Origin: Brumimicrobium oceani
Lineage (GTDB): Bacteria; Bacteroidota; Bacteroidia; Flavobacteriales_D; Crocinitomicaceae
Length of the DNA stretch: 64,000 bases
Direction: 5' to 3'
Assembly: GCF_003143775.1 (NCBI RefSeq)
Contig: NZ_QFRJ01000007.1
Span: 62,001 to 126,000 of the forward strand
The notes under the pieces were generated by a model. That model did no database searches. It was not told the DNA's origin and saw only the letters and a program-made list of their open reading frames with translations. The position numbers and the translations under genes are program-made. Positions 661 through 64,000 of the stretch are shown here, piece after piece; position 1 is the stretch's first letter, and each line of letters begins with the position of its first letter.

Positions 661-3600
661 TTATTGTTGCTTTTCAGCCCTCATCATTATCTTACTCACT
701 TTTTCCAATGCTTCATCAATATTTCCAACATTACTAAATACCAATCTTAATTTATCATTTTTCTGATTCATTTTTACGCCTTTCGGGTTGCTTTGTATAT
801 AATTTAATACCTGCGTAAATATTGGACTTTGATAATAAATGTGTGCCGGATTCTCAGTAAAATATCCAATCATTTTTTCAGATTTGATAATTAAACGTGT
901 AAATCCAACTTCTTGTGCTTTTCTTCGTAATCTTATTGATTGCAGCAAATCTTCAACCACAGCTGGAATTGGACCAAAACGATCAGCCAACTGTGTTTCA
1001 AATAGTTTTAATTCTTCTTCTGTTGCTAAACTATCTAGCTCTTGATACAAGGAAAGACGTTCGGAAACATTGTTTACATAATCATCAGGAATCCTGATTT
1101 CCATGTCGGTTTCTAAAACACATTCTTGAACAAATGATTGATAGCTGTCGCTGTTCCTATTCTCAAATAAATCTTTAAATTCAGATTGACGCAATTCATC
1201 TATGGCTTCATTCAATATTTTCTGATACATGTCGAATCCAATATCAGCAATAAATCCAGACTGTTCTCCTCCTAATAGGTTTCCAGCTCCTCGAATATCT
1301 AAATCCTTCATGGCAATACTAAACCCTGATCCTAAATCTGAAAATTGTACCAAGGCATTCAATCGTTTTTGTGCCTCTGAGGTGAGCATGTTGTAGCGTG
1401 GCGCAATCAAATAGCAGAATCCTTTTTTTGTAGATCTCCCTACACGTCCACGTAATTGGTGTAAATCACTTAAGCCAAAGTTGTTGGCTTTGTTGATGAT
1501 CATTGTATTCGCATTGGAAATATCAATCCCTGATTCAATGATTGTTGTAGCCAATAAAACATCGTATTCATGTTCTATGAAATCCATCATTACTTTTTCG
1601 AGCTTTTTCCCATCCATTTGTCCATGACCAATTCCCACACGAACACCTGGACATAAACGCTGAATCATTCCAGAAATTTCTTGAATATTTTCAAGTCTAT
1701 TGTGTACAAAATAAACCTGTCCACCTCGACTAACTTCATAAGAAATGGCATCTCGAATTGTTTCTTCGTCAAATTCTATAATTTCAGTTAATACAGGCTG
1801 ACGATTGGGTGGAGGAGTGCTAATTATACTCAAATCTCGTGCCCCCATCAATGAAAATTGTAGGGTTCTTGGAATTGGAGTAGCGGTTAACGTTAAAGTA
1901 TCGACTGTGGCTTTTAGTGTTTTTAGTTTGTCTTTTACAGAAACACCAAACTTTTGCTCTTCGTCAATAATAATTAATCCAAGATCTTTAAATTTCACAT
2001 TCTTACTCACAATTTTATGCGTTCCAATAAGAATATCGATTTTTCCATCGCTTAAATCCTTCAAAGTTTCATTGCTTTGCTTTGTCGATTTAAATCGATT
2101 CACGTAATCCACACGAACAGGAAAGTCTTTCAACCTTTCTTTAAAACTTCTATAATGTTGAAGCGAAAGAATGGTTGTAGGAACTAAAATAGCTACCTGT
2201 TTTCCGTCTGTTGCCGCTTTAAAGGCTGCACGAACTGCAATTTCTGTTTTCCCAAAACCTACATCGCCACAAATTAAGCGGTCCATGGGAGTGTCTTTTT
2301 CCATGTCCTCTTTCACAGCCTCGGTTGCTTTTAACTGGTCTGGAGTGTCTTCATATATAAAAGAAGCTTCGAGTTCATTCTGCAAATAAGTATCGGGGGT
2401 ATACGCATATCCCGGCTGACTCTTTCTTTTGGCGTACAATTGAATTAAATCGAAAGCAATTTCTTTGATTTTCTTCTTGGTTTTGTTCTTGAGTTTTGCC
2501 CAAGTTTGCGTGCCTAATTTGTTCATTGAAGGTGCCGTTCCATCTTTCCCAGTGAACTTAGAAATACGGTGCAAAGAGTGAATGGAAACATATAAAACAT
2601 CGTTGTCCTTATATACAAGTCGAATGGTTTCTTGTGGTTTTCCGTTAACGTCAATCGTTTCTAAACCGCTAAATCGTCCGACTCCATGGTCAATATGTGT
2701 TACATAATCTCCTTTTTGTAAATTATGCAATTCTTTTAACGTTAAGGCTTGTTTTGCTTGGCGAAATCCTTCTTTTAGTCTAAATCTGTTGTACCGTTCA
2801 AATATTTGATGGTCGGTATAGCAGACCAACTTCAATTCTTCATTAATAAATCCTTCATGGATTCCAGTGTTAATTGGCGTAAACTCGACTTCAGCTTGAA
2901 TGTCTCTAAAGATGTCCAACAATCTTTCAATTTGTTTTGGCTGATTGGAAAAGATGAGGTTTTTGAATCCTAATTTCTTGCGTTGTTTTAGGTCTTCTGT
3001 TAGTAAATCAAAATTCTTGTTGAAAGCAGGTTGTGCTTTGTCTGTAAACTGAATTACTGCAGCATCTTTATTGGTGTAGTCTGGTCCCCATTCAATTTGG
3101 GTAAACAGTTGAAGTTCTTTTTCTAAATCCGTTGGGTGAAAATACAGCTCAGAAGGTGGTGTGTGTTTGGCTCCTGTTTCTGGCAACTCATTAAAAATTG
3201 ATGCAGCCTTTTTATATTCTGTTTCTAGCTGACCCTTAATTTCTTTGTAGGAGCTGATCCAAAGTGTGGTGTCTTTTCCTACAAAAGAGAGGAAACTTCC
3301 GTTCTCAGTTTGGTCAAGCGACAGTTGAATATTTGGAACGATATGAAAGAAAGCATGTTCTTTAATGGAAAGTTGGGTAACTGGGTCAAATGTTCTAATG
3401 GTCTCCAATTCATCACCAAAAAACTCTAACCTAAAAGGTTGGTCATTCGAATAAGAGAAAATATCTACAATTCCTCCGCGAATAGAAAATTGACCAGGTT
3501 CATATACAAAGTCTACAATATGAAATTCATGCTCTAAAAGAAAGTCAGTCAAAAATTCGATATCATATTCCTCTCCTTTTTCAATTTTAAAAGTGTTGGT

Positions 3601-23288: not shown

Positions 23289-24035
23289 TTACAAAGAGTC
23301 TAGAATTTCCATAAACCTTTCTCTACTTAATCTAGACAATGGGATTTCAGTTCCGTCTTTCATTACAATTGTTCCTCCATCTCCTCTATCGTAACGTTCT
23401 AAATAGTTGATGTTAATGATGTGAGATCGATGACAACGTATAAAATCTGGCAAACACAAAGTATCTTCATAATCTTTTAAAGTGCGAGAAGTAAAGACTT
23501 TTCGACCATCGTTTAAATGAAAATAAGTATAGTTTCTGTCGGATTGACAATGAACAATATCTTTCACGTCAAAAACGTACATGGAGCTTTTGGTGCGAAT
23601 AACGATTCTCTTGTTGTTGTGTTTTAGATTATTGACCAAAGCTTCGTATCTCACTGATAGATCAGACTTTGTTTGTATAGCATCAATTGCATTTTCAAGC
23701 GCACTTTCCAGTTCTTCTATTTCCACAGGTTTTAAGATGTAATCCAATGCTGAGAATTTTATGGCACGAATAGCAAATTCCTGATGAGCGGTCACGAAAA
23801 TAATCTGAAAATCTCTGTTTTTTAGTCTATCCAGCAAATCAAACCCGGAACCGTCTGGCATCTGAATATCAAGTAAAACGATATCTGGTTGATGTTTCTG
23901 AATTGCCAATAAGCCCGCTTCAACACCATCTGCTTCTTCAACCACCTGCAAAGGGAAATTTGTTTGTGAAACCATTTTATTTAACATTGAGCGCGTGCGT
24001 CTTTCATCATCTATAATGATAACCTTGTAGTCCAT
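23289..24035 (-). CDS. LytTR-family response regulator
   Basis: The 248-residue protein has an N-terminal receiver domain with acidic pocket D9, D10 and phospho-acceptor D56 in DIVLLDIQMP. It has a C-terminal LytTR DNA-binding domain from about residue 145 (IVHCQSDRNYTYFHLNDGRK, FIRCHRSHIININYLERY). Such regulators bind promoters as dimers when phosphorylated by LytS/AlgZ-like kinases. The start codon lies 11 bases after the stop of the kinase gene, so the two form an operon and very probably a two-component pair. No target genes can be named. Confidence 0.93.
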   Translation of the reverse strand: MDYKVIIIDDERRTRSMLNKMVSQTNFPLQVVEEADGVEAGLLAIQKHQPDIVLLDIQMPDGSGFDLLDRLKNRDFQIIFVTAHQEFAIRAIKFSALDYILKPVEIEELESALENAIDAIQTKSDLSVRYEALVNNLKHNNKRIVIRTKSSMYVFDVKDIVHCQSDRNYTYFHLNDGRKVFTSRTLKDYEDTLCLPDFIRCHRSHIININYLERYDRGDGGTIVMKDGTEIPLSRLSRERFMEILDSL

Positions 24036-24046
24036 AAGCGAGTATT

Positions 24047-26200
24047 TTAATAATTAATTTTAAAGGGCGTTGTAATGGTGACTAGTGTTCCCGTCTCTTT
24101 TTCTTGGTTTAAATCTTCAATGCGTAAATATCCTTTACTTTTGTGCTTTTCATTGAGTAATGAAATCCTTCCTTTCGTTAAATCAATGGCCATACTGCGA
24201 TGATTTTCTGAGTCAGCAGACTTTTTTTTCTTTGAGGAAGCCTTTCTTCCAACACCGTTATCCTCTATGATAAATTTAAATAAATTTCCAACAATTTCAT
24301 ATTTTATTCGGATTAATCCATTATTAACTTTGTCTAAAGCGCCATGTTCAATTGCATTTTCGATGAAAGGTTGAACCAACATGGGAGGTATAAAAACTCT
24401 TGCTTGGTCTTCTATTGAATCGCTTTCAATGGTGAAATCAAATCTGTCTTCGAAACGCATTTTCTGAATGACTAAATAACGATTAATAATCTCTATTTCT
24501 TTTTCTAAACTAATAAATTCTTTGGCGTTATTTTCTAGCATTAAGCGCATTAGCTTTGAAAAATGCACTAAGAATTTTGAGGAGTTTTTAATGTCTTCAT
24601 CATAAATATAGCTTTGAATCACAGACATTGCATTAAAAATAAAATGCGGATTCATTTGGGAACGGAGGAGGGTTTGTTGTAATTCTATTTCTCTCTGTTT
24701 TTTCTTCAGTTGCTCTTGTTTGTTTTTGTTTTTTATGAGGACAAAAATGGCCACGAAAAGACCAATGGAGACCAAAAGAATAGCTAGAATTAGTTGATTT
24801 AGCTTTTTTGAGTAAGTAAGCTTATTTTGAATTAATAAACGTTCGGAGAGTTCTTCTTCCAACTTTTTCTCTTGCTCAATTATTTTTCGCTCCTTCTGCT
24901 CCGTTTTAAAAAGTTCACTGAGTTCTGCTACTTTACGATCAGTTTCTTGACTATAAATGCTGTCACTCATTTTTATATATTGTCTGTAGTAAAGATTGGC
25001 CTCTTTATGATTTCCTTGTTTATACTTAATTTCGGCATATTTAAAATAGGCTTTATGAAGTGGTAAAACTAGATTTTTATTCTGCCAATAGTTTATCGCT
25101 TTTTTAATATAGACTTCAGATTGTTGTAATTGGTTTTTCGATAAGTGTAGCTGAGATATTAAACAGTAGAGCTCGCCTTTTTCTTCATCTCCTGTGGTGA
25201 TGGCTGAGAATTGCAGACTGAGTTCATAGTTTTTGGCTGCTAAATCAATGTCGCCCTTATCGAAATAAGCTTTTCCAATATTTTTATGGACATTCACCAG
25301 CCCTGTATTATATTGAATGTTATAAAAATTGATTAATGATTTTTGATAGTACTGTATACTTTTGCTTAGCTCCTTTTTGGCGTTGTATAGTTCTCCCAAG
25401 TAATTGTAAAGTTGACCCGAAACATAATCTATGTTTAGACCTTTAAGTAGTTCCTGAGCTTCTAGAAATGCTTCCTCTGCTTTGTCGAACTGACCTAATT
25501 CGAAATGAATGTGTCCTATACTCACCAAATGACTCACAGTATTTGCAGAAAGCTTGTTTTCTTTTGCAAAAGAGATTCCTTTTTGTTGATTTTGAATTGC
25601 TTTTTGAAAATCTTCAATTTCTAAATAAAATAATGAGGCAATATCATGAATGGAAGAGGCTAAAGATTTTACATCACTTTGTTTTGCGTATTTGATAGAT
25701 AAATTAAAGAAGTCTATGATGGATTGCTCATCTATATTCGCCTTACAAGTAGATATGGCATAGAAAACACTTTTTCGTGTCGCATCTTTGTAGTGTTCGA
25801 TGTTGCCTTTAATTTTTGCGTATTCTTCTTCAGAAATAGTTTCCTTTTTTAAGCATTTTATTATTCCCTCAACCAAAAGTAAATCCTCTTTCTGTAATTC
25901 CTGCCCTATGATGTCAAAGGTGTTTTTTGTGCCACCCAATCTGGTATTGTTAAATTGCGTTACAAGCAAGGCAATTTTTCCTTTGTCTGATAATTGTGAA
26001 ATATAATTCGAACGCTGTTTGATCACTGAATCACACGCCAAAGTATTACTTTGACTCAGATAAGAAATCCAGGAGAGGTAGTGTTTTTCTTTTTCTGCAT
26101 TGGTCTGTGCATTTACGATTTTTCGTTCATAGTTTATTTCATTGCCTGCGAAAAGTGCAAATGAGATAATTAGAATAAAAGTCGAAATAATGAATTTCAT
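24047..26200 (-). CDS. TPR sensor histidine kinase, LytS/His_kinase type
   Basis: The 717-residue protein begins with a signal peptide (MKFIISTFILIISFALFAG). A long periplasmic tetratricopeptide-repeat region follows (about residues 150-430, for example GQFDKAEEAFLEAQELL). Then come a coiled coil, one membrane helix (LILAILLVSIGLFVAIFVLI) and a cytoplasmic kinase. The kinase is the His_kinase/LytS type, with the phospho-acceptor His in QMNPHFIFNA (H519) and ATPase motifs PPMLVQPFIENAIEHG and DNGVGRKAS. It is cotranscribed with the LytTR regulator. TPR sensors of this layout are common in Bacteroidota, and the signal sensed is unknown. Confidence 0.92.
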   Translation of the reverse strand: MKFIISTFILIISFALFAGNEINYERKIVNAQTNAEKEKHYLSWISYLSQSNTLACDSVIKQRSNYISQLSDKGKIALLVTQFNNTRLGGTKNTFDIIGQELQKEDLLLVEGIIKCLKKETISEEEYAKIKGNIEHYKDATRKSVFYAISTCKANIDEQSIIDFFNLSIKYAKQSDVKSLASSIHDIASLFYLEIEDFQKAIQNQQKGISFAKENKLSANTVSHLVSIGHIHFELGQFDKAEEAFLEAQELLKGLNIDYVSGQLYNYLGELYNAKKELSKSIQYYQKSLINFYNIQYNTGLVNVHKNIGKAYFDKGDIDLAAKNYELSLQFSAITTGDEEKGELYCLISQLHLSKNQLQQSEVYIKKAINYWQNKNLVLPLHKAYFKYAEIKYKQGNHKEANLYYRQYIKMSDSIYSQETDRKVAELSELFKTEQKERKIIEQEKKLEEELSERLLIQNKLTYSKKLNQLILAILLVSIGLFVAIFVLIKNKNKQEQLKKKQREIELQQTLLRSQMNPHFIFNAMSVIQSYIYDEDIKNSSKFLVHFSKLMRLMLENNAKEFISLEKEIEIINRYLVIQKMRFEDRFDFTIESDSIEDQARVFIPPMLVQPFIENAIEHGALDKVNNGLIRIKYEIVGNLFKFIIEDNGVGRKASSKKKKSADSENHRSMAIDLTKGRISLLNEKHKSKGYLRIEDLNQEKETGTLVTITTPFKINY

Positions 26201-26617
26201 AAATCTAGTGTATAGCTAAAACAGTACTGTCTCCATCGCTTTTATTTCCTTGAGTAAACCGTTTATGGACGGTAACACATTAAGATTAAAACAATTTATA
26301 TTGTAAATTATTTTTGTTTCTCATCAAGCGCTAAAGACAGTTAGAGCAATGAATGTATAAAAATAAAAGCTTATTTAATGAAAATCACAGAATAAATTAA
26401 GCACACTCCATTTTTATCTTCAAAAGGAATAATAATTCACTTGATTTTCGCTTGGGTTAAATGCATGATGCACTGATTATTGTCAGGCCTTCCGAGAGGT
26501 TAAAAACTTTTTTATCCGCAAATGTGAATAATTAAAGAAATAATAGGACAAAAACATATTTTGACATTAACTTAGTGTTTTGAATTGACACGGAATTTTT
26601 TAGTAAAACAAACTACA
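26201..26617. other. 417-bp divergent intergenic region
   Basis: This gap separates the divergent kinase and universal stress protein genes. It holds a TATTTTTG box on the plus strand at 26308-26315, which would leave a leader of about 300 bases before the uspA-like gene. There is also a short palindrome TGCATGATGCA near 26462. No coding frame is convincing. Confidence 0.4.
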
Positions 26618-32991: not shown

Positions 32992-35676
32992 CTAATAACT
33001 GAGATTAGAGCCCAGCCATTTTTCCATTTCCTCAGTGCTTTTTCCTTTTCGCGCTGCTATGCTTTCTACTTGTTCTTTAGTAATTTTCCCAACCCCAAAG
33101 TACTTGGCTTCTGGATGTCCAAAATACCACCCCGCAACTGCAGCAGTAGGATACATTGCCATGTGTTCGGTTAGTTTCAAACTGGTGTGTTCTGTGGCGT
33201 TTAAAATTCTAAACAAGCCAGGTTTTTCTGTGTGGTCCGGACATGCTGGATAGCCAGGTGCTGGTCGAATACCTTTGTATTTTTCTCGAATTAAGGCCTC
33301 ATTATCCAAGTTTTCCTCTGGTGAATAGCCCCAGAACTCTTTTCTTACTCTGGCATGAAGTAATTCTGCAAAAGATTCCGCTAATCTGTCGGCTAATGCT
33401 TGCAATAGAATGGCGTTATAGTCGTCATGGTCATCTTTAAATCTTTGTACATGCTTTTCTATGCCAATACCAGCAGTTACTGCGAATCCGCCAATGTAAT
33501 CCTTAATTCCTGTGTCTTTTGGTGCAATAAAATCTGCTAAGGCAATATTATGAGCTTTCTTAGATTTTTTCAATTGTGAGCGCAATGAACGTTGGGTGTA
33601 GAGGACTTTTTTTCTACTTTCGTCTGTGTAGATTTCAATATCGTCGTCATTGATTGAGTTTGCAGGAAATAGACCATAAACTCCTTTGGCTTGAAGCCAT
33701 TTTTCATTTACTATCTTCTTTAGCATATTTTTGGCATCAACAAAGAGCTTAGTTGCTGCCTCACCAACAATTTCGTCCTCTAGAATAGCAGGGAATTTAC
33801 CTGCTAGCTCCCACGTCTGGAAAAAAGGTGTCCAATCGGTGTATTCCAATATTTCATTTATGTCGTAGTCTTGAAAGCTATATACACCAAGTTGATTGGG
33901 TACTTTAATATCACTTTGCTTCCATTCTATAGGGAATTTATTTTGACGTGCCTCTTTTAGTGATATGTAAGATTTGCGTGCATTGTTTTTTTCATGATGG
34001 TCACGAAGTTTCTTGTATTCTTCTTTAATGTTGGAGACAAAAATATCACGTTTATTTCCCAATAAGCTTTCAACTGCGGTTACAGAGCGTGAAGCATCTA
34101 AAATATGAACGGTTTGATTTTTAGTATAAAACTGTTCTATTTTTACGGCGGTATGCACCCGAGAGGTTGTAGCACCACCAATGAGCAAAGGAATACTGAT
34201 GTCAGCACGTTCCATTTCTTTGGCAACGGTTACCATTTCATCTAGGGATGGTGTTATTAAACCACTTAGACCAATGGCATCGGCATTTACTTCAATTGCG
34301 GTTTGAATGATTTTCTCTGCAGGAACCATGACGCCTAAATCGATTACTTCATAATTGTTGCAACCCAATACAACGCCAACGATGTTTTTACCAATATCAT
34401 GGACATCTCCTTTGACCGTAGCCATCACGATTTTCCCATTGGGCTTATCATCTTCTTGTTTGTCAGCTTCAATATAAGGCAATAGATAAGCAACAGCCTT
34501 TTTCATTACACGTGCAGATTTAACGACTTGTGGTAAAAACATCTTTCCACTTCCGAATAAATCACCTACTACGTTCATTCCATCCATTAATGGGCCTTCA
34601 ATGACTTCGATTGGACGTTTATACTTTTGGCGACATTCTTCTGTATCTTCCTCTATAAATTCTGTTATTCCTTTTACGAGTGCGTGTGACAATCTCTTTT
34701 GAACAGTTTGTTCTCTCCAGCTTAAATCGACAAGTTTTTCTTTTTTTTTACCTGTGAAATTTTCTGCAAAATCCAACAACCTTTCAGTGGCATCATTTCT
34801 TCTATTCAGTAAAACGTCTTCAACTTTTTCCAGCAGTTCTTTGTCTATGTCATCATATACACCAAGCAAAGCAGGGTTTACAATCCCCATATTCATTCCT
34901 TTCTGAATGGCGTGATATAGAAAAGCAGAGTGCATTGCCTCTCGAACAGCATTATTTCCTCTGAAGGAAAAGGAGACATTAGAAACTCCTCCTGATACAC
35001 TTGCTCCTGGTAGATTTTTTCGAATCCACTCTGTTGCATTGAAAAAATCTAAAGCATTATTCCTATGTTCTTCCATTCCTGTTCCAACAGGAAAAATGTT
35101 TGGATCAAAAATGATGTCTTGCGGTGGGAAATTCGCTTTTTCAACTAAAATATCATAAGAACGTTTGCAAATTTCAATTCTCCTTTCATAATTGTCCGCC
35201 TGACCTACTTCATCAAATGCCATAACAATTACTGCAGCTCCCAAGCGCTTCACAATTTTGGCTCTTTCAATAAACAATTCTTCTCCATCTTTTAGAGAGA
35301 TAGAATTTACAACTCCTTTTCCTTGTATACACTTTAAGCCCGCCTCTATAATTTCCCATTTAGAAGAATCTACCATTATAGGTACTCTAGCAATGTCTGG
35401 CTCCGAGGCAATTAGGTTTAAGAAGCGAATCATAGCTTCCTTTCCGTCTATCATTCCTTCGTCCATGTTTACATCGATAATCTGAGCACCACCTTGAACC
35501 TGGTCTAGAGCAACCTCAAGTGCTTCCTCGTATTTATCTTCTTTGATTAAACGCAAGAATTTCTTAGATCCTGTCATGTTTGTACGTTCACCTATGTTGA
35601 TAAAGTTGGACTCAGGTGTAACAACCAAAGGTTCTAAACCTGAGAGTTTTAATGGAGGAAGTGTTTTGCTGTTCAT
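32992..35676 (-). CDS. metH: methionine synthase, folate/cobalamin/activation modules (split MetH, large part)
   Basis: This 894-residue protein carries all MetH modules except the homocysteine-binding one. It has a pterin-binding barrel ([14 protein letters not shown]), a cobalamin cap and Rossmann domain with the axial ligand in DVHDIG (H426), and a C-terminal SAM-dependent reactivation domain ([15 protein letters not shown]). It moves a methyl group from methyltetrahydrofolate to homocysteine through B12. The start is the ATG at 35676; an in-frame TTG at 35703 is less likely. The homocysteine domain is encoded by the gene 59 bases upstream, and both should be cotranscribed from the riboswitch-controlled promoter at 37003. 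Confidence 0.95.
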
Positions 35677-35735
35677 TTTATAATATTTTTGGACTTTTTT
35701 CAATGGGAAAGTGAATTCTATTCTTTAATAGAGAT

Positions 35736-36737
35736 TTATTCTGCTTTAATTTTTCTCACTTCATATTTCTTTACTAAATCTGCAATAACTTTGATGTGTT
35801 CGGGTGTTGTTCCGCAACATCCACCGATAATATTGACCAATTTTTCTTCTAGAAATGTCTTAATCTGAGCACCCATTATCTCAGGAGTCTCGTCATATTC
35901 CCCAAATTCATTGGGTAGTCCTGCATTGGGATGGGCAGAGACGTAAAATGGGGCTTTTTCATCCATTATTTTTAAATACTGTCTTAGTTCTTTCGCTCCT
36001 AGTGCGCAATTTAGTCCAACACTGAAGACAGGCAGATGCGATATTGAAATTAAAAACGCTTCGGTTGTTTGTCCCGTTAAAGTTCTTCCGGAGGCATCCG
36101 TGATTGTCCCCGAAATCATAATTGGGAGTTCAGTGTTCATTTCTTCTTGAACAAGGTCAATTGCATATAACGCAGCTTTTGCATTAAGTGTATCGAATAT
36201 CGTTTCTACAAGCAGAATGTCCACGCCCCCTTCAATTAATGCTTTTACTTGCAAACTATAAGCTTCAACCAATTCATCAAAGCTTATTGCTCTAAAAGCA
36301 GGATCATTTACATCTGGTGATATGGAGCATGTTCGGTTGGTTGGCCCAATGGCTCCTGCGACATATCGTGGTTTATTTGGATCTTTAGCAGTAAATTCAT
36401 CTGCTACTTCTTTTGCAATTTTTGCAGATTGATAATTTATATCATAAACAGCCTTTTCTAAATCATAATCTGCCTGTGCAACCGTCGTTCCTGAGAAGGT
36501 GTTCGTTTCGCAAATATCTGCTCCTGCCTCAAAATAACTAGCATGAATTTCCTTGATTATTTCTGGTCGTGTTAGGGAAAGCAAATCATTATTACCCTTT
36601 AATAGCTTAACGTGGTCTTCAAACCAGCCCTTTCTAAAATCGGCTTCCTCTAAGTCATATCTTTGAATCATGGTTCCCATGGCTCCATCCAGAATCAATG
36701 TTCTTTCTTTAACTATTTCACGAATGTCTTTTTTCAT
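35736..36737 (-). CDS. metH: methionine synthase, homocysteine-binding module (split MetH, small part)
   Basis: The 333-residue protein is a homocysteine S-methyltransferase barrel. It has [20 protein letters not shown] at the N-terminus and the zinc-binding cysteines in VGLNCALG and [10 protein letters not shown]. It corresponds to the first of the four modules of E. coli MetH, encoded here as a separate gene ahead of the other modules. Split metH genes are common in Flavobacteriia, so this is ancestral organisation rather than a frameshift: the two frames are separated by 59 bases and each has its own ATG. Control is by the S-box riboswitch upstream. Confidence 0.95.
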
Positions 36738-36853: not shown

Positions 36854-36860
36854 GTTTTCT

Positions 36861-36966
36861 ACTTATCTATTTCCATAATATTGGAATAGGAATTGGCACC
36901 GGAATTAATGAATTAAAAGGTTGCCAAGGTTTCGTTGGGCCTGTCCCTCCACCTTTCTTTATAAGT
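36861..36966 (-). promoter_or_regulatory. SAM-I (S-box) riboswitch controlling metH
   Basis: The minus strand carries the S-box core in order: GGTGGAGGGACAGGCCC (36937-36953), GAAACCTTGGCAACC (36919-36933) and GGTGCCAATTCC (36889-36900). The P1 helix closes with ACTTAT (36961-36966) and ATAAGT (36861-36866). S-box RNAs bind S-adenosylmethionine and lower expression of methionine genes when SAM is plentiful. A promoter box lies 36 bases upstream and a terminator directly downstream, ahead of the split metH operon. Confidence 0.93.
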
Positions 36967-37002
36967 ATTATTGTTTCTACTTAGCACCTTGCCGAAAACA
37001 AA

Positions 37003-37605: not shown

Positions 37606-37692
37606 ACTCAGTTCGTTATTTTTAGGCATTGATGTTAGTTTATTGCACTACTATCAGATGTGGTGTAGCTGATGCTCTAAGTCGGTGAAATT

Positions 37693-37814
37693 AAAAAGAG
37701 GAAGACGTTAAATCTTCCTCCCTCTAAAACCAACACTACTACTTATGAAACTTAACTACTATGCTTCTATAACTGTTTAAAAACGCTTTTGTTGTACTCA
37801 ATAAGTCAAATATT
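37693..37814 (-). ncRNA. small-RNA-like element, copy 1
   Basis: Read on the minus strand: a -7-like box AATATTTG (37807-37814), then AAGTTTCATAAGTAGTAGTG (core near 37735-37752), then an 8-bp stem GAGGAAGA/TCTTCCTC (37698-37705 with 37713-37720) and TTTTTAATTT. The T tract exists only on this strand, which fixes the likely direction. The transcript would be about 110 bases and no gene is adjacent. Confidence 0.5.
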
Positions 37815-37984
37815 TGTTAATGATTTAAGTTAAGGTAGTCCTTTAATCGGTTCTAAATAAAATACTATAGTTAACCAATTTTAATCCTTTGAAAAATGAA
37901 TTGTTCTACTGCGAATCGAACTCCATCTTATACGAGATGTATTTTAAAGTGTTGATAACGTTTAGCACATTAAGTTTTTGATTG

Positions 37985-38220
37985 CACTCAAAGTTACCAC
38001 TGATTTCAATTTAAAAGCTTTGAGTTTAATATGACTTATTGAAGATTCCCCAATCTATAATATATGACAACTGTAATTTCAAAGGAGTCAAACGACTGAG
38101 GAGTTCGCAGGCTTCCGACTGAAACTCTTTTTGATTATCGTTAAATATAAATTTGGCTTCAAAGAGATGATTTTTTGCTAGTTGTTTTCATCACAAAGAA
38201 CTGGCAAGATAGCGGTAAGC
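37985..38220. repeat. degenerate repeat X, homologous to 46584-46805
   Basis: Blocks shared with the second copy include ATGACTTATTGAAGATT, CCCCAATC and CTTTTTGATTATCGTTAAAT, with indels between them. Neither copy codes for protein. Both lie in gene-poor DNA. The nature of the element is unknown. Confidence 0.6.
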
Positions 38221-38450
38221 ATTTAAGATTTGAAAACTATCCACACAGATTCATATTGTATCCTTTTATTTTTACAAAATTGTCCGATAAAAGTAGCGTA
38301 TTTGCTATGCGTAAACCTAAAAACGGAAATCTTTTCGGAAGTAATGATAAAGCGGCTGTAACTAAAACATAGTAGATCGATAATTTCAATAGGGGAATAA
38401 ATAGTTATTTAATACTGCCTTTAATGTATTTCAACAGGAATGAAGCTGTT

Positions 38451-38568
38451 AAAAACAACAAGAGAGAAAGCGGGCGCCTTCTCTCTTGTTTAACACTACT
38501 ACTTATGAAACCTAACATTCTTATAAACCTCTAATTTTAGTTTTTGTTGCCCTCGTATTCCAAAAATA
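38451..38568 (-). ncRNA. small-RNA-like element, copy 2
   Basis: The minus strand carries a perfect -7 box TATTTTTG (38561-38568). The core TTAGGTTTCATAAGTAGTAG follows, then a 12-bp perfect stem (38457-38468 with 38479-38490) and a T-rich end TTGTTTTTAAC. The loop includes GCGCCCGC. The layout matches copies 1, 3 and 4. Confidence 0.55.
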
Positions 38569-38892
38569 TGTTAATGATTTTTATTTTTCATCTAATGGGA
38601 GCTAGGGCATCTTTATTAATAAAATATTGTTCAGCTGTAACTAACTATTTTATGTGGATTGACATAAGATGTTTAAGGCTTACCTGCTTGGCCGCCATAA
38701 TGATGTTCTAATGGAGAGTTGATCATCCAAACGCTTTTGTGATTCCAAAAATTAGATTTAAGGCACTTCGGGTTGTGCCTTGAATTTTCTGAAAATATAT
38801 TGAATTAGAAGTCGCTAATTTTAATCTTAGCTTTGGTGCCTGTTTTTGGACAAGAATTTTGATTTCAGGTATTGTTAATTACTCTATAAAGC

Positions 38893-39004
38893 AAGAAAAG
38901 AGGAAACGGGCGTTTCCTCTTTTCTTTAACACTACTACTTATGAAACCTAACATTCATTTAAACTGCCATTTTTTTGGTTTATTGCTTTAGTATTCTGAA
39001 AATA
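38893..39004 (-). ncRNA. small-RNA-like element, copy 3
   Basis: The minus strand carries a -7-like box TATTTTCA (38997-39004), the conserved core TGTTAGGTTTCATAAGTAGT, and a perfect 15-bp stem (38893-38907 with 38912-38926) with loop GCCC. The right arm of the stem is itself T-rich. Confidence 0.5.
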
Positions 39005-39297
39005 TGTTAAATCCAAATTTATCCGATTTTACCTGAGAATTATGAAGGTTTAAGTCAGTTTTTATAGCTTGTCCGGTAATAAGTCCCTGAGAATAATCGG
39101 TTATGGAGACACTGGCGTCCGAAATAAATTTCACAGCATCTTTATATCTCTTTATTTGAAGGGATTTTGGTTAGCTGTTTGATTATATCCCTTGATTTTT
39201 CAAATAACTGGTTCTATATGATTTTGTGTGGGTTTGTTTTATATCTATTTGTTTTAAGCCAAGGACTTACGGCCTTGGTTTTTAATATGTCGTCATG

Positions 39298-39475
39298 ATG
39301 GGACTAACTAACTGAAATACGAATGAAAATTTTCTTTTTTGCAACACGAAAGAAAAAATTATTTGATAATTACTATAAAATACAACTCATTAAGATTATG
39401 TTTAAATTCGTATTAGATCTAATAAACTTTCAAAAGAATTAAGGTTGATTATCGACAGTATTGCATATAGAACCA
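39298..39475. repeat. degenerate repeat Z, homologous to 46855-46955
   Basis: Two blocks match the other copy: one around GACTAACTAACTGAAATACG and one around TTGATTATCGACAGTATTGC. In the second cluster the same blocks lie directly after repeat X, whereas here they are about 1.1 kb away, with copies 2 and 3 of the small-RNA-like element between. Confidence 0.5.
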
Positions 39476-40042
39476 AATATCTTAGTTCGGAGCATTTGGG
39501 ATTTCACAGCGAAAATGCGCTGCACTGAGCGCCTGCCGAATGTGAGTTTTCATGCAGAATTGCATTACTTGAAAAGAGCCGTAGCGAAGCTAGCTCATGA
39601 AGACCTTGGAAAGGTTTTAAAAACTGAATAAAAAGGATTGTTGATTTAGAGATTTCCAATCCAAAGTTGTAGAAGTTAATTTTAATTGGACAATCGCGAT
39701 TATGGAGAAAGGCTTTCGCTGTAAAGATTGGGTAATTATCCTTGTTAAAGTGTTGAATAGTCGTTAGCGCTAGCTGTTAGTTTACATTCATCCAAAACGA
39801 GTGAGTATGCTTGATGATAGATTGTGAATGTGAGCATGCCGAAAGTTGAGTTTTCTTAGCGGTAAACTTCAAAGGTGAATTGAGATAAATAGGTGCTACT
39901 TCGGAATAAAATAAATGTGCTTTTAAATTAAGGCAATAAAGAAAGAGCAGTTCGGAAATTGTAAGAGTACTCGATTGAAGCTTTTCTTATTGGTCTAATA
40001 GAAAAGTGAGCTATGTAATAGTGGGGGATTCATTATTGCCCT

Positions 40043-40148
40043 AAACAAAACAAGAGAGAAAACGGGCGTCTCCTCTCTTGTTTAACACTACTACTTATGA
40101 AACCTAACAGCTATATAACGCACCAATTTTATATTTGTTTCAAAGTGA
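40043..40148 (-). ncRNA. small-RNA-like element, copy 4
   Basis: The minus strand carries TCACTTTG (40141-40148, one mismatch to TAnnTTTG). The core TGTTAGGTTTCATAAGTAGT follows, then an 11-bp stem (40048-40058 with 40073-40083) and TTTTGTTT. It lies just downstream of the terminator of the T9SS protein gene, so it is not that gene's 3' end. Confidence 0.5.
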
Positions 40149-40163
40149 TCTCTTAAATAAAGG

Positions 40164-40197
40164 TTAAAAAAAAGAGGAGCCAATTGGCTCCTCTTTT
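40164..40197 (-). terminator. intrinsic terminator of the T9SS protein gene
   Basis: A perfect 28-base palindrome centred between 40183 and 40184 (arms of 14 bases, GAGGAGCCAA/TTGGCTCCTC core) is followed on the minus strand by eight T. It lies about 22 bases beyond the stop codon. Confidence 0.88.
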
Positions 40198-40219
40198 CTA
40201 TATTGTTTTCAAGTGATGA

Positions 40220-42025
40220 TTACTTGTTCACGATCATTTTACGTGTAACAGTAGATTCACCAGCTGTAATGTTTAAGTAATAAACACCGTTAGCGAATGA
40301 AGAACCATCGATAGTGATTGAGTGATCACCAGCCAATGTAGTTCCTTCCGTTACTTCTGTCATAACTTTTCCAGTTAAGTCAACAACTGTGTAAGAAACA
40401 TCAGTTGCTTCTTTCAAGTTAAAGTTAACTGTAGTTGTGTTAGCAAAAGGATTTGGGAAGTTTGAAGAAACATTCAAGTTAGATAACTCATTGTTCTCTA
40501 CGCTCAATGTTGGGTCAAAGTTCATTCTAATCACTGGAGTTCTTGTTGTGTAGTACCAAGTCGCATCATCTAAGTAATAGATAAATGATGTTTGAGCTGG
40601 ACTTTCACCTGCTGTTGCAACAGAGAAGTCGTTTTCGAAACATTTAACAGATACTGCGTAAGTTTCTCCTGCCATTACGTTTAATGGTGTGTCAAAAATT
40701 AAGTTTACTGTTTTACCTGCGTCACCTGCTTGAACAACGTATGGTGCAGTTTCACCTGCTGCAACTGGGTCTAAGTTATTGTCTAATACTTCACCATAAA
40801 CTAAAGCACCTTCAGTAACAACATTTCCAAATTGGAATTGAATACCTGTCAATTGAGCATCAGCAAAGATGTCAAATAAGTTAGCTGGAATCACCTCTGT
40901 TGGTGGAGCATCAGCACTTCCAGTCAACTGACCATAAACTGTGTTTGGAGAAGTTGAAGTATCTCTTGCATAGATGAATTGGTTTACGTTAAATTCATAA
41001 GAATTCAACATGTTGTTTGATGGTACATCATCAACAGCATCGTATGATACAGAGTAATCAATTTTGTACGAACCTTGTCCACTTGGAGTGAATGTGTTTG
41101 TTACAACAACTGAATCTTCTGTTCCTGAAACCAAAGTAATTGGCGCTGAAGAACTAGTGTAAACACCTGCATTTACCTCGTTTGCGTTTAATTTAACGTT
41201 TTGTTCGTCATTTGCACCTTGGTTCATTACAACAACTGATGATTCAATTGGAGCTACCTGGTCAACTGGAATTTGCTTGTAGTAAAGACCAACAGATCCA
41301 AAGTTGTGACTTCTTACAGCGATATCGTGATCAGCCAATGTCAATACATCTACATCATCAACTTGCCATCCGTAACCACCTGTAGTTCCTAAAGACTCCC
41401 AACGGAATCTGAATTTCACATCTGATGAGTTGTTTACATTGAAGTTTCTGAAAACTGTTGTTTCAGTAGTACTTGTGTTTCCAGCAACAGTTGGGTTTAC
41501 ATCAATTGTTTGCTCCCAAGTAGTTCCACCATCTAAACTTACTTCAACATAAGTTTTGTTTGAGCTAAACGCACGGTACTCTTGCTCGAACTTTAAAGTT
41601 ACAATTGATTCTGTTGAACAATCTACACTGTTCGCCATTTGAATCCAAGCAACTTGATCCAAAGTGTTGTCCACAAACTGAATCCCATCAAAGAAAGCAT
41701 AACCATTTCCGGCAGAAGTCATTCCTGGTGAATTCATAAAGTTGTCTAAAGTAACGTTCTGACCTTGGAATACAAAAGGATTATAATCAGCTGTTGTACC
41801 AATTACCCATGAACCTTGAAGTCCACTCCCATCGATTACCCAGTCACCTGCTACACTGAAATCGTTAGCCCATATAGAAACACCTTGTGCCTTGGCTACG
41901 TCATTATTATTAGAAATCGCTTTCTCAGTCTGTAGAGTCTTTTGAGAAGGCGCTTTTTGAACAACTTGATTAAAAGCAAATGAAGATGCTCCTAAAAAAG
42001 CTGCCATTACGTAAATCTTTTTCAT
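40220..42025 (-). CDS. secreted protein with type IX secretion sorting domain
   Basis: The 601-residue protein has a signal peptide (MKKIYVMAAFLGASSFAFNQ). A choice-of-anchor-J/MAM-like beta domain follows at about residues 55-235 (SWVIGTTADYNPFVFQGQ, GYAFFDG, GGYGWQVDDVDVL), then Ig-like and beta-rich segments. It ends in a type A Por secretion tail of about 80 residues (SSNFPNPFANTTTVNF, GVYYLNITAGESTVTRKMIV). The tail is cleaved when the protein crosses the outer membrane by T9SS, so the product is on the surface or secreted. There is no catalytic motif; an adhesive or structural role is a guess. A strong terminator follows. Confidence 0.88.
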   Translation of the reverse strand: MKKIYVMAAFLGASSFAFNQVVQKAPSQKTLQTEKAISNNNDVAKAQGVSIWANDFSVAGDWVIDGSGLQGSWVIGTTADYNPFVFQGQNVTLDNFMNSPGMTSAGNGYAFFDGIQFVDNTLDQVAWIQMANSVDCSTESIVTLKFEQEYRAFSSNKTYVEVSLDGGTTWEQTIDVNPTVAGNTSTTETTVFRNFNVNNSSDVKFRFRWESLGTTGGYGWQVDDVDVLTLADHDIAVRSHNFGSVGLYYKQIPVDQVAPIESSVVVMNQGANDEQNVKLNANEVNAGVYTSSSAPITLVSGTEDSVVVTNTFTPSGQGSYKIDYSVSYDAVDDVPSNNMLNSYEFNVNQFIYARDTSTSPNTVYGQLTGSADAPPTEVIPANLFDIFADAQLTGIQFQFGNVVTEGALVYGEVLDNNLDPVAAGETAPYVVQAGDAGKTVNLIFDTPLNVMAGETYAVSVKCFENDFSVATAGESPAQTSFIYYLDDATWYYTTRTPVIRMNFDPTLSVENNELSNLNVSSNFPNPFANTTTVNFNLKEATDVSYTVVDLTGKVMTEVTEGTTLAGDHSITIDGSSFANGVYYLNITAGESTVTRKMIVNK

Positions 42026-60964: not shown

Positions 60965-61645
60965 TTACTCTTCTTCAAAGCCAGAAAAATAAACTTGGGT
61001 GTCATCTACGTTTAAGCGCAAAAGTCGCATGAACTCTTCTTGCTTTTCTTGAGGAATGGTGTTGAGCTGAAAATCCAAAACCAAATCGTTATTATTGTAT
61101 TCGAAAAAAAGCTGGTTTTTCGTGATAGAAATACGTTTTAATCCTTTGAAATAAATGGCCACCACTTCTCGGTCAACGGATACTATCGCTTTGCTTGTCA
61201 TACCCACACGGTATTTTCCTCCAAGCACCCCTCTTAATGTATTGATTAATGCGTCAATAATAAAAATCAGGAAAATTAGCGAGATAAAGATGGCATCTTT
61301 TGAAAAGATGAAAAAGACAGCTCCTATCAGTGCAAATCCTATAATTTCGATGCTATTATTGAGAATGACCCGTTGTTTTCTTTCTTCACTTATCAAACTA
61401 TTGAATTGAAAACGATCTATTTGGTTTACCACTCTTATTCCAGACCATTTTCTAGAAGAACGCGTAGCTCCAAGCAAGAATATTAATCCTGCGGAAATTC
61501 CGAAGACCAGTTCTTTATATTCGAACTGATCTCCGTGAATTTTTAATCCAAAAATACCAAAGACTTCATTCAAGCCCACAGCGAATGCAAATGGCAGTGT
61601 CAGCAGTGAGATGATAAAAATCCAAGTATTGTATATTTTATTCAT
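60965..61645 (-). CDS. hypothetical membrane protein
   Basis: The product of 226 residues has two pairs of hydrophobic helices: about residues 8-29 with 45-60, and 97-113 with 118-135. Between the pairs lies a short cytoplasmic-type stretch, and a strand-rich soluble tail of about 85 residues follows (AIVSVDREVVAIYFKGLKRI, LVLDFQLNTIP). I do not recognise the family. Its start overlaps the end of the DUF349 gene by eight bases, a strong sign of cotranscription and translational coupling. Confidence 0.65.
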   Translation of the reverse strand: MNKIYNTWIFIISLLTLPFAFAVGLNEVFGIFGLKIHGDQFEYKELVFGISAGLIFLLGATRSSRKWSGIRVVNQIDRFQFNSLISEERKQRVILNNSIEIIGFALIGAVFFIFSKDAIFISLIFLIFIIDALINTLRGVLGGKYRVGMTSKAIVSVDREVVAIYFKGLKRISITKNQLFFEYNNNDLVLDFQLNTIPQEKQEEFMRLLRLNVDDTQVYFSGFEEE

Positions 61646-63352: not shown

Positions 63353-64000
63353 TTAAATAGATTTAACCATGTCGAAGTTTGTCAATTGAACAAACTCTTG
63401 TATGCGGTCTTCTATTTCAGTTTTCGTTAAGTTTTCTAATTTTTCTGTTCCAAATTTCTCTACACAGAAAGAAGCCATAGCAGAACCTGCAATAATTCCT
63501 CTTTTCATATTTTCGAATGAAATATCATCTGTTGATGCTAAATATCCCATAAATCCACCTGCGAAAGTATCTCCTGCTCCTGTTGGATCAAAAACATCTT
63601 CTAAAGGTAGAGCTGGTGCGAAAAACACATCTGTTCCATGAAACAATAAAGCGCCATGTTCACCTTTTTTAATTACTAAGAATTTTGGTCCCATTTCGCG
63701 AATTTTTTTCGCTGCTTTAACCAAAGAATATTCTCCTGAAAGTTGTCTTGCCTCTTCATCATTGATGATCAACATATCTATTGCAGCGATGGCTTTAACC
63801 AAATCATCCATGGCGATATCCATCCAGAAATTCATAGTGTCCATTGCGACTAACTTAGGACGTTTTTCCATTCTGTTGATTACCTTCAACTGCACATCTG
63901 GACTTAGGTTTCCTAACATTAGGTATTCACACCCTTGGTAAGATGCTGGAATAATTGGGTCGAAATTTTCTAAAACGTTTAGCTCAGTTACTAAAGTGTC
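63353..64000 (-). CDS. PfkB-family carbohydrate kinase, 5' end beyond the window
   Basis: The frame is open to the right edge: DTLVTELNVLENFDPIIPAS and further residues precede the Met at 63919, so that Met is internal. The visible 215 residues include AMDTMNFWMD, a ribokinase-like middle (LIINDEEARQL) and PfkB signature 2, DPTGAGDTFAGGFMGYLA, with the catalytic Asp. The family phosphorylates sugars or nucleosides; the substrate cannot be told. About 90 to 100 N-terminal residues are missing. It is the first visible gene of the operon with DUF349. Confidence 0.9.
   Translation of the reverse strand, partial: DTLVTELNVLENFDPIIPASYQGCEYLMLGNLSPDVQLKVINRMEKRPKLVAMDTMNFWMDIAMDDLVKAIAAIDMLIINDEEARQLSGEYSLVKAAKKIREMGPKFLVIKKGEHGALLFHGTDVFFAPALPLEDVFDPTGAGDTFAGGFMGYLASTDDISFENMKRGIIAGSAMASFCVEKFGTEKLENLTKTEIEDRIQEFVQLTNFDMVKSI

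Follow-up and report, generated by a model that had tools for sequence, protein, structure and literature searches.

The window analysed here is a stretch of 64,000 nucleotides (nt) of Brumimicrobium oceani DNA (G000:C33:62001-126000, part of a 3.85 Mb Bacteroidota genome, G000 in what follows). It carries four copies of a short element, all on the minus strand and all with the exact core TTTCATAAGTAGTAGTGTT (Table 1), in a region where no open reading frame (ORF) of at least 100 aa lies between positions 37606 and 40219. The four separate copies that the initial annotation had placed in this gene-free region are thus all present, and a fifth exact-core copy is found elsewhere in the genome, on contig C2. 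Searching the whole genome for the 19-mer with at most two mismatches gave 6 places (5 exact and 1 with one mismatch) versus 1 with a reversed-letter control. On one side, the array borders a type IX secretion system (T9SS) cargo gene (40220-42025, minus strand) that carries Por_Secre_tail, copy 4 being located just downstream of its terminator-like hairpin. Likewise, a hairpin and T run directly precede the first copy at five other loci (L008, L017, L022, L026 and L027). The reading of the copies as an array of paralogous small RNAs (sRNAs), also made in the initial annotation, has strong support: the stems covary, the unit is conserved across the family, the RNA strand carries promoter elements, and the hairpins are followed by T-rich tails.

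The conserved unit and its distribution

The unit is composed of GTTAG-N-TTTCATAAGTAGTAGT, a hairpin that varies in sequence and remains strictly paired, and a T-rich tail. Across 41 aligned copies, the constant part GTTAGG-TTTCATAAGTAGTAGTGTT shows few variants and is followed by 0-8 nt, a stem of 12-17 bp and the T-rich tail; the loop is GCCC in 32 of them and the distance from GTTAG to the stem end is 53-66 nt. For covariation, 31 of these copies were retained after removal of five duplicates or near duplicates and of the five most divergent copies (window copy 1, L011_6778, L015, L021_1093 and L023), so that the count describes the main subtype. Among these 31 distinct relatives, standard pairs fill 99.3% of 434 pair cells and changes on both sides are seen at 12 of the 14 stem pairs. 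Such both-side changes concern 122 cells, versus a mean of 33.7 in shuffles (none of 500 as high) and 13-27 with slid partners, which bears out the earlier remark that the stems are changed yet compensated. G-U pairs are also present within the stem. Copy 1, which stands outside this count, belongs to a divergent subtype with a GTTAAG start and a TTAAC hairpin loop, and its hairpin forms too. A further variant at L011 (6778-6839, plus strand) retains the full core without GTTAG; its 5' part is longer and follows a TATCTTTAC-like box.

A larger set of 80 copies (one row per distinct sequence) was selected by the motif with at most 2 changes in 19 letters and by a fold of at most -9 kcal/mol downstream of it. 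In this set, itself picked by the motif, positions 1-22 except 6 are 97-100% identical, and the seed contained in this 5' part is predicted to stay largely single-stranded when the RNA is taken alone (mean unpaired probability of 0.80). In the sister genera g18, g17, g14, g10 and g9, GTTAGTTTTCATAAGTAGTAGTAGTTTAGG or a close variant forms the unit together with a terminator.

A covariance model, the kind of search suggested at the outset, matches 101 of 150 Crocinitomicaceae genomes in 17 of 24 genera, often in tandem. Genomes of the own genus (g1) have 6-10 matches each, the low-scoring of which can be terminators of other genes. The own genome has 10 matches, 5 of them with the exact core; four weak ones are listed, and the sole one that was read is without the core. 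This element (G000:C12:226067-226127, plus strand, in L201) combines a similar terminator with a GTTAGGTTAGGTTGATTAG 5' part and lacks the TTTCATAAG core; both motifs are found in L130, and it possibly represents a sibling small-RNA family. At the order level, 66 of 299 genomes match, including 3 outside the family, one of which (G178) has two strong matches at G178:C127:234-512 (best 67.7 bits, E 9.1e-15) while the other two are weak. In a phylum sample, 9 of 395 genomes match, strongly in the own genome only. The 8 matches of this sample outside the family (27-34 bits) were rejected, since what they have in common with the RNA is the terminator and at most core fragments. At L089 in G574 (about 1501-1568, plus strand, 33.3 bits), ATATGTAGTAGTGTTAAC is followed by a terminator and GTAGTAGTGTTAAC is kept; this could be a distant relative or a chance match. 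The core was not found in the viral collection. The exact 19-mer is present in 22 named stretches, from Brumimicrobium (12), itself a member of Crocinitomicaceae, Lishizhenia (4), Fluviicola (1), Crocinitomicaceae (1), Flavobacteriales (2) and others (2). The two others, metagenome-assembled genomes from Bacteroidales (L019) and Oleispira (L020), are devoid of the RNA's hairpin, and their core matches were excluded from all counts of the RNA.

When the whole window was compared with Rfam 15, only a SAM riboswitch (36860-36967) reached the threshold, and no family did so over the copies. Between 37200 and 40230, there are 20 permissive matches at about half the threshold or less, and Flavo-1, which had been named as a family to check, is not among them. 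Among the matches listed in the open-access literature (subscription papers and supplements being outside this scope), no title or opening of an abstract describes the RNA family; nothing was found there on sRNAs of Crocinitomicaceae, and the single paper linking small RNAs with Brumimicrobium is a study of a lake community. The copies constitute a multicopy sRNA family that is new to Rfam.

Promoter elements and probable transcription start

The initial annotation assigned to each copy a TAnnTTTG-like box, located 40-60 nt upstream and acting as promoter of a transcript of about 100 nt. The comparison of copies corrects both points. What the window copies share is a TTAAC box located 58-64 nt ahead of GTTAG, and none of the four has TAnnTTTG within 30 nt. 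Among the 80 copies, the TTAAC box is found in 41 (shuffled mean of 7, maximum of 15) and also precedes TAnnTTTG promoters. TAnnTTTG, quoted in PMC7366714 as the -7 consensus, occurs within 30 nt in 9 copies (shuffled mean of 1.5, maximum of 7), and one subtype has TATCTTTG-like boxes that end exactly 4 nt before GTTAG (7 copies). A sigma54-like element, TGGYRY-N4-6-TTG, ends 13-26 nt before GTTAG in 34 of the 80 copies, versus a mean of 0.25 and a maximum of 2 in 200 shuffles of the upstream regions; it is present in none of the four window copies. A gene for RpoN was found in the 20 genomes checked. In Flavobacterium psychrophilum, sigma54 promoters precede genes for chaperones, gliding and exported proteins, and one putative regulatory RNA, according to PMC9723704.

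Promoter types are mixed even within one array: at L017, L026 and L028, the first copies are of the TTAAC type and the last is sigma54-like. The g1 copies of these arrays have a spacing of 13-14 nt, as expected if transcription starts at GTTAG. The g18 copies have about 12 nt more, which makes a start slightly further upstream, in CAACTAAGTAGAA, likely in that genus. TTAAC would define a third promoter type, present before all four window copies. Since the stretch between the TTAAC box and GTTAG would then be promoter and not transcript, an RNA of about 60-75 nt is expected. We infer expression and both RNA ends, and the copies are most likely short RNA genes of that length that start near GTTAG. 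At another locus (L001, L012, L013, L016, L018 and L024), one subtype displays a palindrome centred on TACC-AT/TA-GGTA between the TTAAC and -7 boxes, which is probably a regulator site.

Predicted pairing with start regions and the anti-seed stretch

The seed contains UUUCAU, the complement of AUGAAA, and pairing of the core with the translation starts of exported proteins had been proposed from the first. ORFs of 100 aa or more were collected from stretches of G000 and of G067, a genome of the same genus; the first ATG of each served as its start, and the region from -40 to +25 was analysed. Duplex energies were computed with a threshold of -14 kcal/mol, the controls were shuffled seeds keeping UUUCAU or longer cores, and the exported class was defined by a simple hydrophobicity rule. 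As this class was introduced after the top list of the first G000 sample, that sample is exploratory; 13 of 73 exported starts passed versus 5.0 ± 2.4 expected (1 of 80 controls as high), and 20 of 237 others versus 16. An independent second G000 sample, with settings unchanged, gave 13 of 62 exported starts versus 4.8 ± 2.5 (0 of 60 controls) and 12 others versus 14.7. With the same settings, G067 gave 14 of 96 versus 7.6 ± 3.1 (2 of 60) and 11 others versus 12.8. When both genomes were pooled (884 genes, first sample included) and UUUCAUAA was kept in the shuffles, 40 of 231 exported starts passed versus 17.4 ± 6.1 (0 of 60), and 43 of 653 other genes versus 38-42. Keeping UUUCAUAAG or UUUCAUAAGUAG raised the expectation to about 21 (21.2 for UUUCAUAAGUAG), which no control out of 60 brought up to 40 in either case. 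At thresholds of -13, -15 and -16, between 0 and 3 of 60 controls were as high as the exported count.

The excess is confined to the window -40..+24 around the start (40 versus 19.1 ± 6.4), five other windows differing from the control by no more than about one standard deviation. Exported genes show it whether they have ATGAAA (25 of 109 versus 12.2) or lack it (15 of 122 versus 6.9; 1 of 120 controls each), and it is absent from non-exported ATGAAA genes (8 of 106 versus 8.7). The difference between the exported and other classes is 0.107 versus 0.024 ± 0.021 (0 of 120). For the tests with the core only or with a 28-nt seed, for G004 and for the additional ones in G010 and G052, further seeds and a percentile threshold were used. 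In G004, a relative without a model-detected copy, the same seed gave 3 of 115 versus 8.5, and in the two g1 genomes a 28-nt seed gave 30 versus 14.6 (1 of 40). Excess complementarity of the seed at exported-type starts is thus present in one genus.

Several observations weigh against pairing with this class as the function of the RNA. The class itself followed from the first sample, as said above, and G067 alone with a larger control is weaker (14 of 96 versus 8.8; 7 of 120). A genome-wide search for near-exact core complements returned 23 places in the own genome (5 being the copies) versus 37 for the reversed control, and 476 versus 594 in 10 genomes. In the two g1 genomes, the 16-nt core alone has no clear excess (23 versus 17.3 ± 6.5; 9 of 40), and our interpretation is held slightly less firmly for that reason. 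Outside the genus, where the settings were first applied unchanged, G010 has no excess with any of three seeds. G052 has one with the 16-nt core only (14 versus 5.7; 0 of 40), and none with either of two longer seeds, that of g1 and its own. Besides, mean seed energy is lower mid-gene (-10.3) than at starts (-9.7), the 8 exported orthologue pairs comparable between G000 and G067 show no significant correlation, and G004 has one exact 14-letter match to the core complement. The proposed pairing with exported-protein starts hence stands in statistical terms for two genomes of the genus; it finds no support in G010 and mixed support in G052, and does not extend to near-exact complements. A 14-letter pattern searched in 150 genomes led to 30 loci that were read, of which 18 are further RNA copies; among the other 12, 6 were judged by eye to lie at exported-type starts and were not counted as evidence.

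The one-mismatch place mentioned above (L006) was kept out of the copy counts and treated apart as an anti-seed; it bears a complement of the core (Table 1). A terminator-like hairpin and a T run close the stretch, which is convergent with a gene that was read by eye, with no search made, as a methyltransferase. BLASTN against 10 genomes of the genus located the stretch in 6 of them (L098-L103), where the end of the opposite-strand gene is the same in all six and much of the DNA upstream of the anti-seed has diverged. Three of the six carry the motif ACACTACTACT[A/G]ATGAAA unchanged, the rest having 1, 2 and 3 changes. Predicted pairing with the seed amounts to -22.9 to -28.2 kcal/mol and is below that of all 300 shuffled seeds in 5 of the 6; the exception is L101 (-22.9 versus a shuffled minimum of -23.2). 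Opposite seed A13, all six have A or G and never the pairing T. In some genomes, Ts flank the hairpin on the other side too (judged by eye), and the strand was consequently deduced from the order anti-seed, hairpin, T run. In its simplest reading, this stretch looks like a sponge RNA; the end of a target mRNA is another possibility.

Proposed mechanism and related systems

We consider it likely that each copy is a gene for a trans-acting sRNA of about 60-75 nt that acts as a brake on the translation of exported proteins. Transcription would start near GTTAG and yield a mostly single-stranded seed, 5'-GUUAGGUUUCAUAAGUAGUAGUGUU, and the RNA would end at the intrinsic terminator hairpin recognised from its sequence. 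The seed is predicted to pair around the AUG of mRNAs for signal-peptide proteins and lipoproteins, and would most likely keep ribosomes from binding, in the manner of FopS on susC mRNAs in Bacteroides. The near-redundant copies, placed under sigma54-like, TAnnTTTG-type and TTAAC-box promoters, would add dose, and since these promoters differ, several envelope or stress signals could feed one brake. Separately encoded, the anti-seed RNA probably titrates the sRNAs. The direction of regulation and the sponge action are what we infer from base pairing, and the same holds for the partner protein on the grounds of gene content. Indeed, Hfq (PF17209) was found in none of 7 genomes searched, versus 5 of 14 control genomes, making a single RRM-domain protein the candidate RNA partner; one RRM_1 gene was found in the own genome (L082 1291-1752, minus strand, G000:C1). 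Next to it lie genes that, judged by eye, look like those of a histidine kinase and of a response regulator of the LytTR type. A broader scheme can be drawn for the whole family, in which an invariant seed, complementary to start codons and expressed from arrayed copies under interchangeable sigma54, housekeeping and third-type promoters, sums several envelope signals and shuts down translation of the exported class, with the conserved anti-seed sponge as a check; we offer it tentatively, as a possibility less likely than not.

Other explanations have to be weighed against a brake on exported proteins. The RNAs could be real and their 5' end mainly a protein-binding site that titrates or delivers an RNA-binding protein (e.g. 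RRM), with mRNA pairing being secondary. Near-invariance over 22 nt exceeds what pairing needs, and the single RRM_1 gene together with the absence of Hfq points the same way, as does the finding that an RRM protein binds the 5' region of FopS RNAs (PMC11697453). A seed-specific excess at exported starts and a conserved anti-seed are nevertheless unexpected from protein binding alone, and we regard this explanation as unlikely. Somewhat less probable still is an sRNA with one dominant mRNA target so far unseen, the exported signal being a by-product of compositional bias. It would account for the lack of genome-wide excess of near-exact complements, for the unclear result of the 16-nt core in the genus and for the absent or mixed support in two other genera, but such a bias should not vanish in G004 and in non-exported ATGAAA genes, nor should shuffles keeping UUUCAUAAGUAG fail to reproduce the excess.

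The two remaining explanations do not involve an sRNA. A repeated DNA element, such as a mobile or recombination site or a REP-like palindrome, is evoked by tandem arrays with hairpins and by a copy number that varies between genomes; it is very improbable given that promoters of different types all stop at, or close to, one position, that the T-rich tail is on the RNA strand, that the stem tolerates G-U pairs and that, of five neighbouring genes checked in the window, none is a transposase or integrase. Short leader peptides on the plus strand with MKPN or MKLN at their start, suggested earlier on the basis of the ATGAAA that the core's complement provides, are even harder to maintain: in 69 of the 80 copies, a stop codon ends the frame after 4 to 33 codons (the other 11 have none within the 37 codons covered), 12 peptides compared agree only in the MKPN or MKLN fixed by the seed letters, and the frame crosses the promoter of the opposite strand.

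Detailed knowledge of trans-acting sRNAs in the Bacteroidota is limited to few species. The closest system in action appears to be FopS of Bacteroides thetaiotaomicron, presented in PMC11697453 as multicopy RNAs of 65-70 nt with a 5' seed directed against susC mRNA start regions, bound by the RRM protein RbpB, reported from Bacteroidaceae and transcribed from canonical sigma-ABfr promoters. The present family and the FopS/GibS RNAs share several paralogues per genome, a conserved 5' seed followed by a terminator, a similar length and an RRM_1 gene in the genome. Start regions of outer-membrane or exported genes are the targets of FopS; here they are predicted ones, with a computed excess in two genomes, none in G010 and a mixed result in G052. 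Unlike FopS, the present RNAs are found almost solely in Crocinitomicaceae and have sigma54-like, TAnnTTTG and TTAAC-box promoters, mixed even in single arrays. As the promoters differ and the comparison is one of description, the family was not filed as FopS. Like the Qrr RNAs of Vibrio, whose transcription depends on sigma54, it comprises several similar sRNAs; sigma54-like elements precede 34 of the 80 copies and none of the four in the window, and a gene for RpoN is present. Qrr RNAs depend on Hfq and LuxO, whereas no Hfq was found in the 7 genomes and promoter types are mixed here. The streptococcal csRNAs are five highly similar small RNAs with an unpaired region complementary to the start-codon region; they belong to another phylum, have another sequence and are described as driven by one response regulator, CiaR. 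LhrC1-7 of Listeria are multicopy, partly in tandem, and act on envelope proteins, with a different pairing motif and in another phylum; they are named in PMC11697453.

With its fixed seed, natural promoter variants, predicted target class and candidate sponge, the family offers a test case; type IX secretion and surface life depend on exported proteins, the predicted class. If the proposed mechanism is true, it would suggest that paralogous sRNAs blocking start codons without Hfq are a general means of surface control in the Bacteroidota, reached by separate families.

Four genes of the window are among those that pass -14 kcal/mol. For the TPR histidine kinase (Table 1), the G067 orthologue gives -16.8. 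The regulator gene is not of the exported type, and a G067 regulator gene with a near-identical N-terminus reaches -20.8. The other two are 60965-61645 (-14.8) and 63353-63919 (-15.2).

Table 1. Copies, inferred promoters and associated features (window positions unless a contig is given)
Feature	Position	Strand	Remarks
Copy 1	37686..37756	-	core 37732-37750; stem-loop about 37691-37727; covariance model 45.7 bits
Copy 2	38449..38516	-	core 38492-38510; hairpin 38457-38490, then T-rich tail; covariance model 89.3 bits
Copy 3	38885..38952	-	core 38928-38946; hairpin 38893-38926; covariance model 85.8 bits
Copy 4	40041..40108	-	core 40084-40102; hairpin 40048-40083; covariance model 84.1 bits
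Inferred promoter region, copy 1	37757..37820	-	TTAAC box at far end, 64 nt before GTTAAG
Inferred promoter region, copy 2	38517..38574	-	TTAAC box; TTTATA about 5 nt before GTTAG
Inferred promoter region, copy 3	38953..39010	-	TTAAC box
Inferred promoter region, copy 4	40109..40167	-	TTAAC box abuts the terminator of the T9SS-cargo gene; GTTATA near start
Terminator-like hairpin of upstream T9SS-cargo gene	40167..40202	.	inverted repeat; outside the RNA
Predicted target site, TPR histidine kinase gene 24047-26200(-)	26176..26240	-	-16.9 kcal/mol with seed; exported type
Predicted target site, LytTR response regulator gene 23289-24035(-)	24011..24075	-	-14.1 kcal/mol
Anti-seed stretch (L006/L098)	G000:C1:577568-577808	-	one-mismatch core complement

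Finally, the SAM riboswitch of the window (RF00162, 86.7 bits, minus strand) sits upstream of two genes, one for a homocysteine S-methyltransferase (35736-36737) and one of MetH type (32992-35703).

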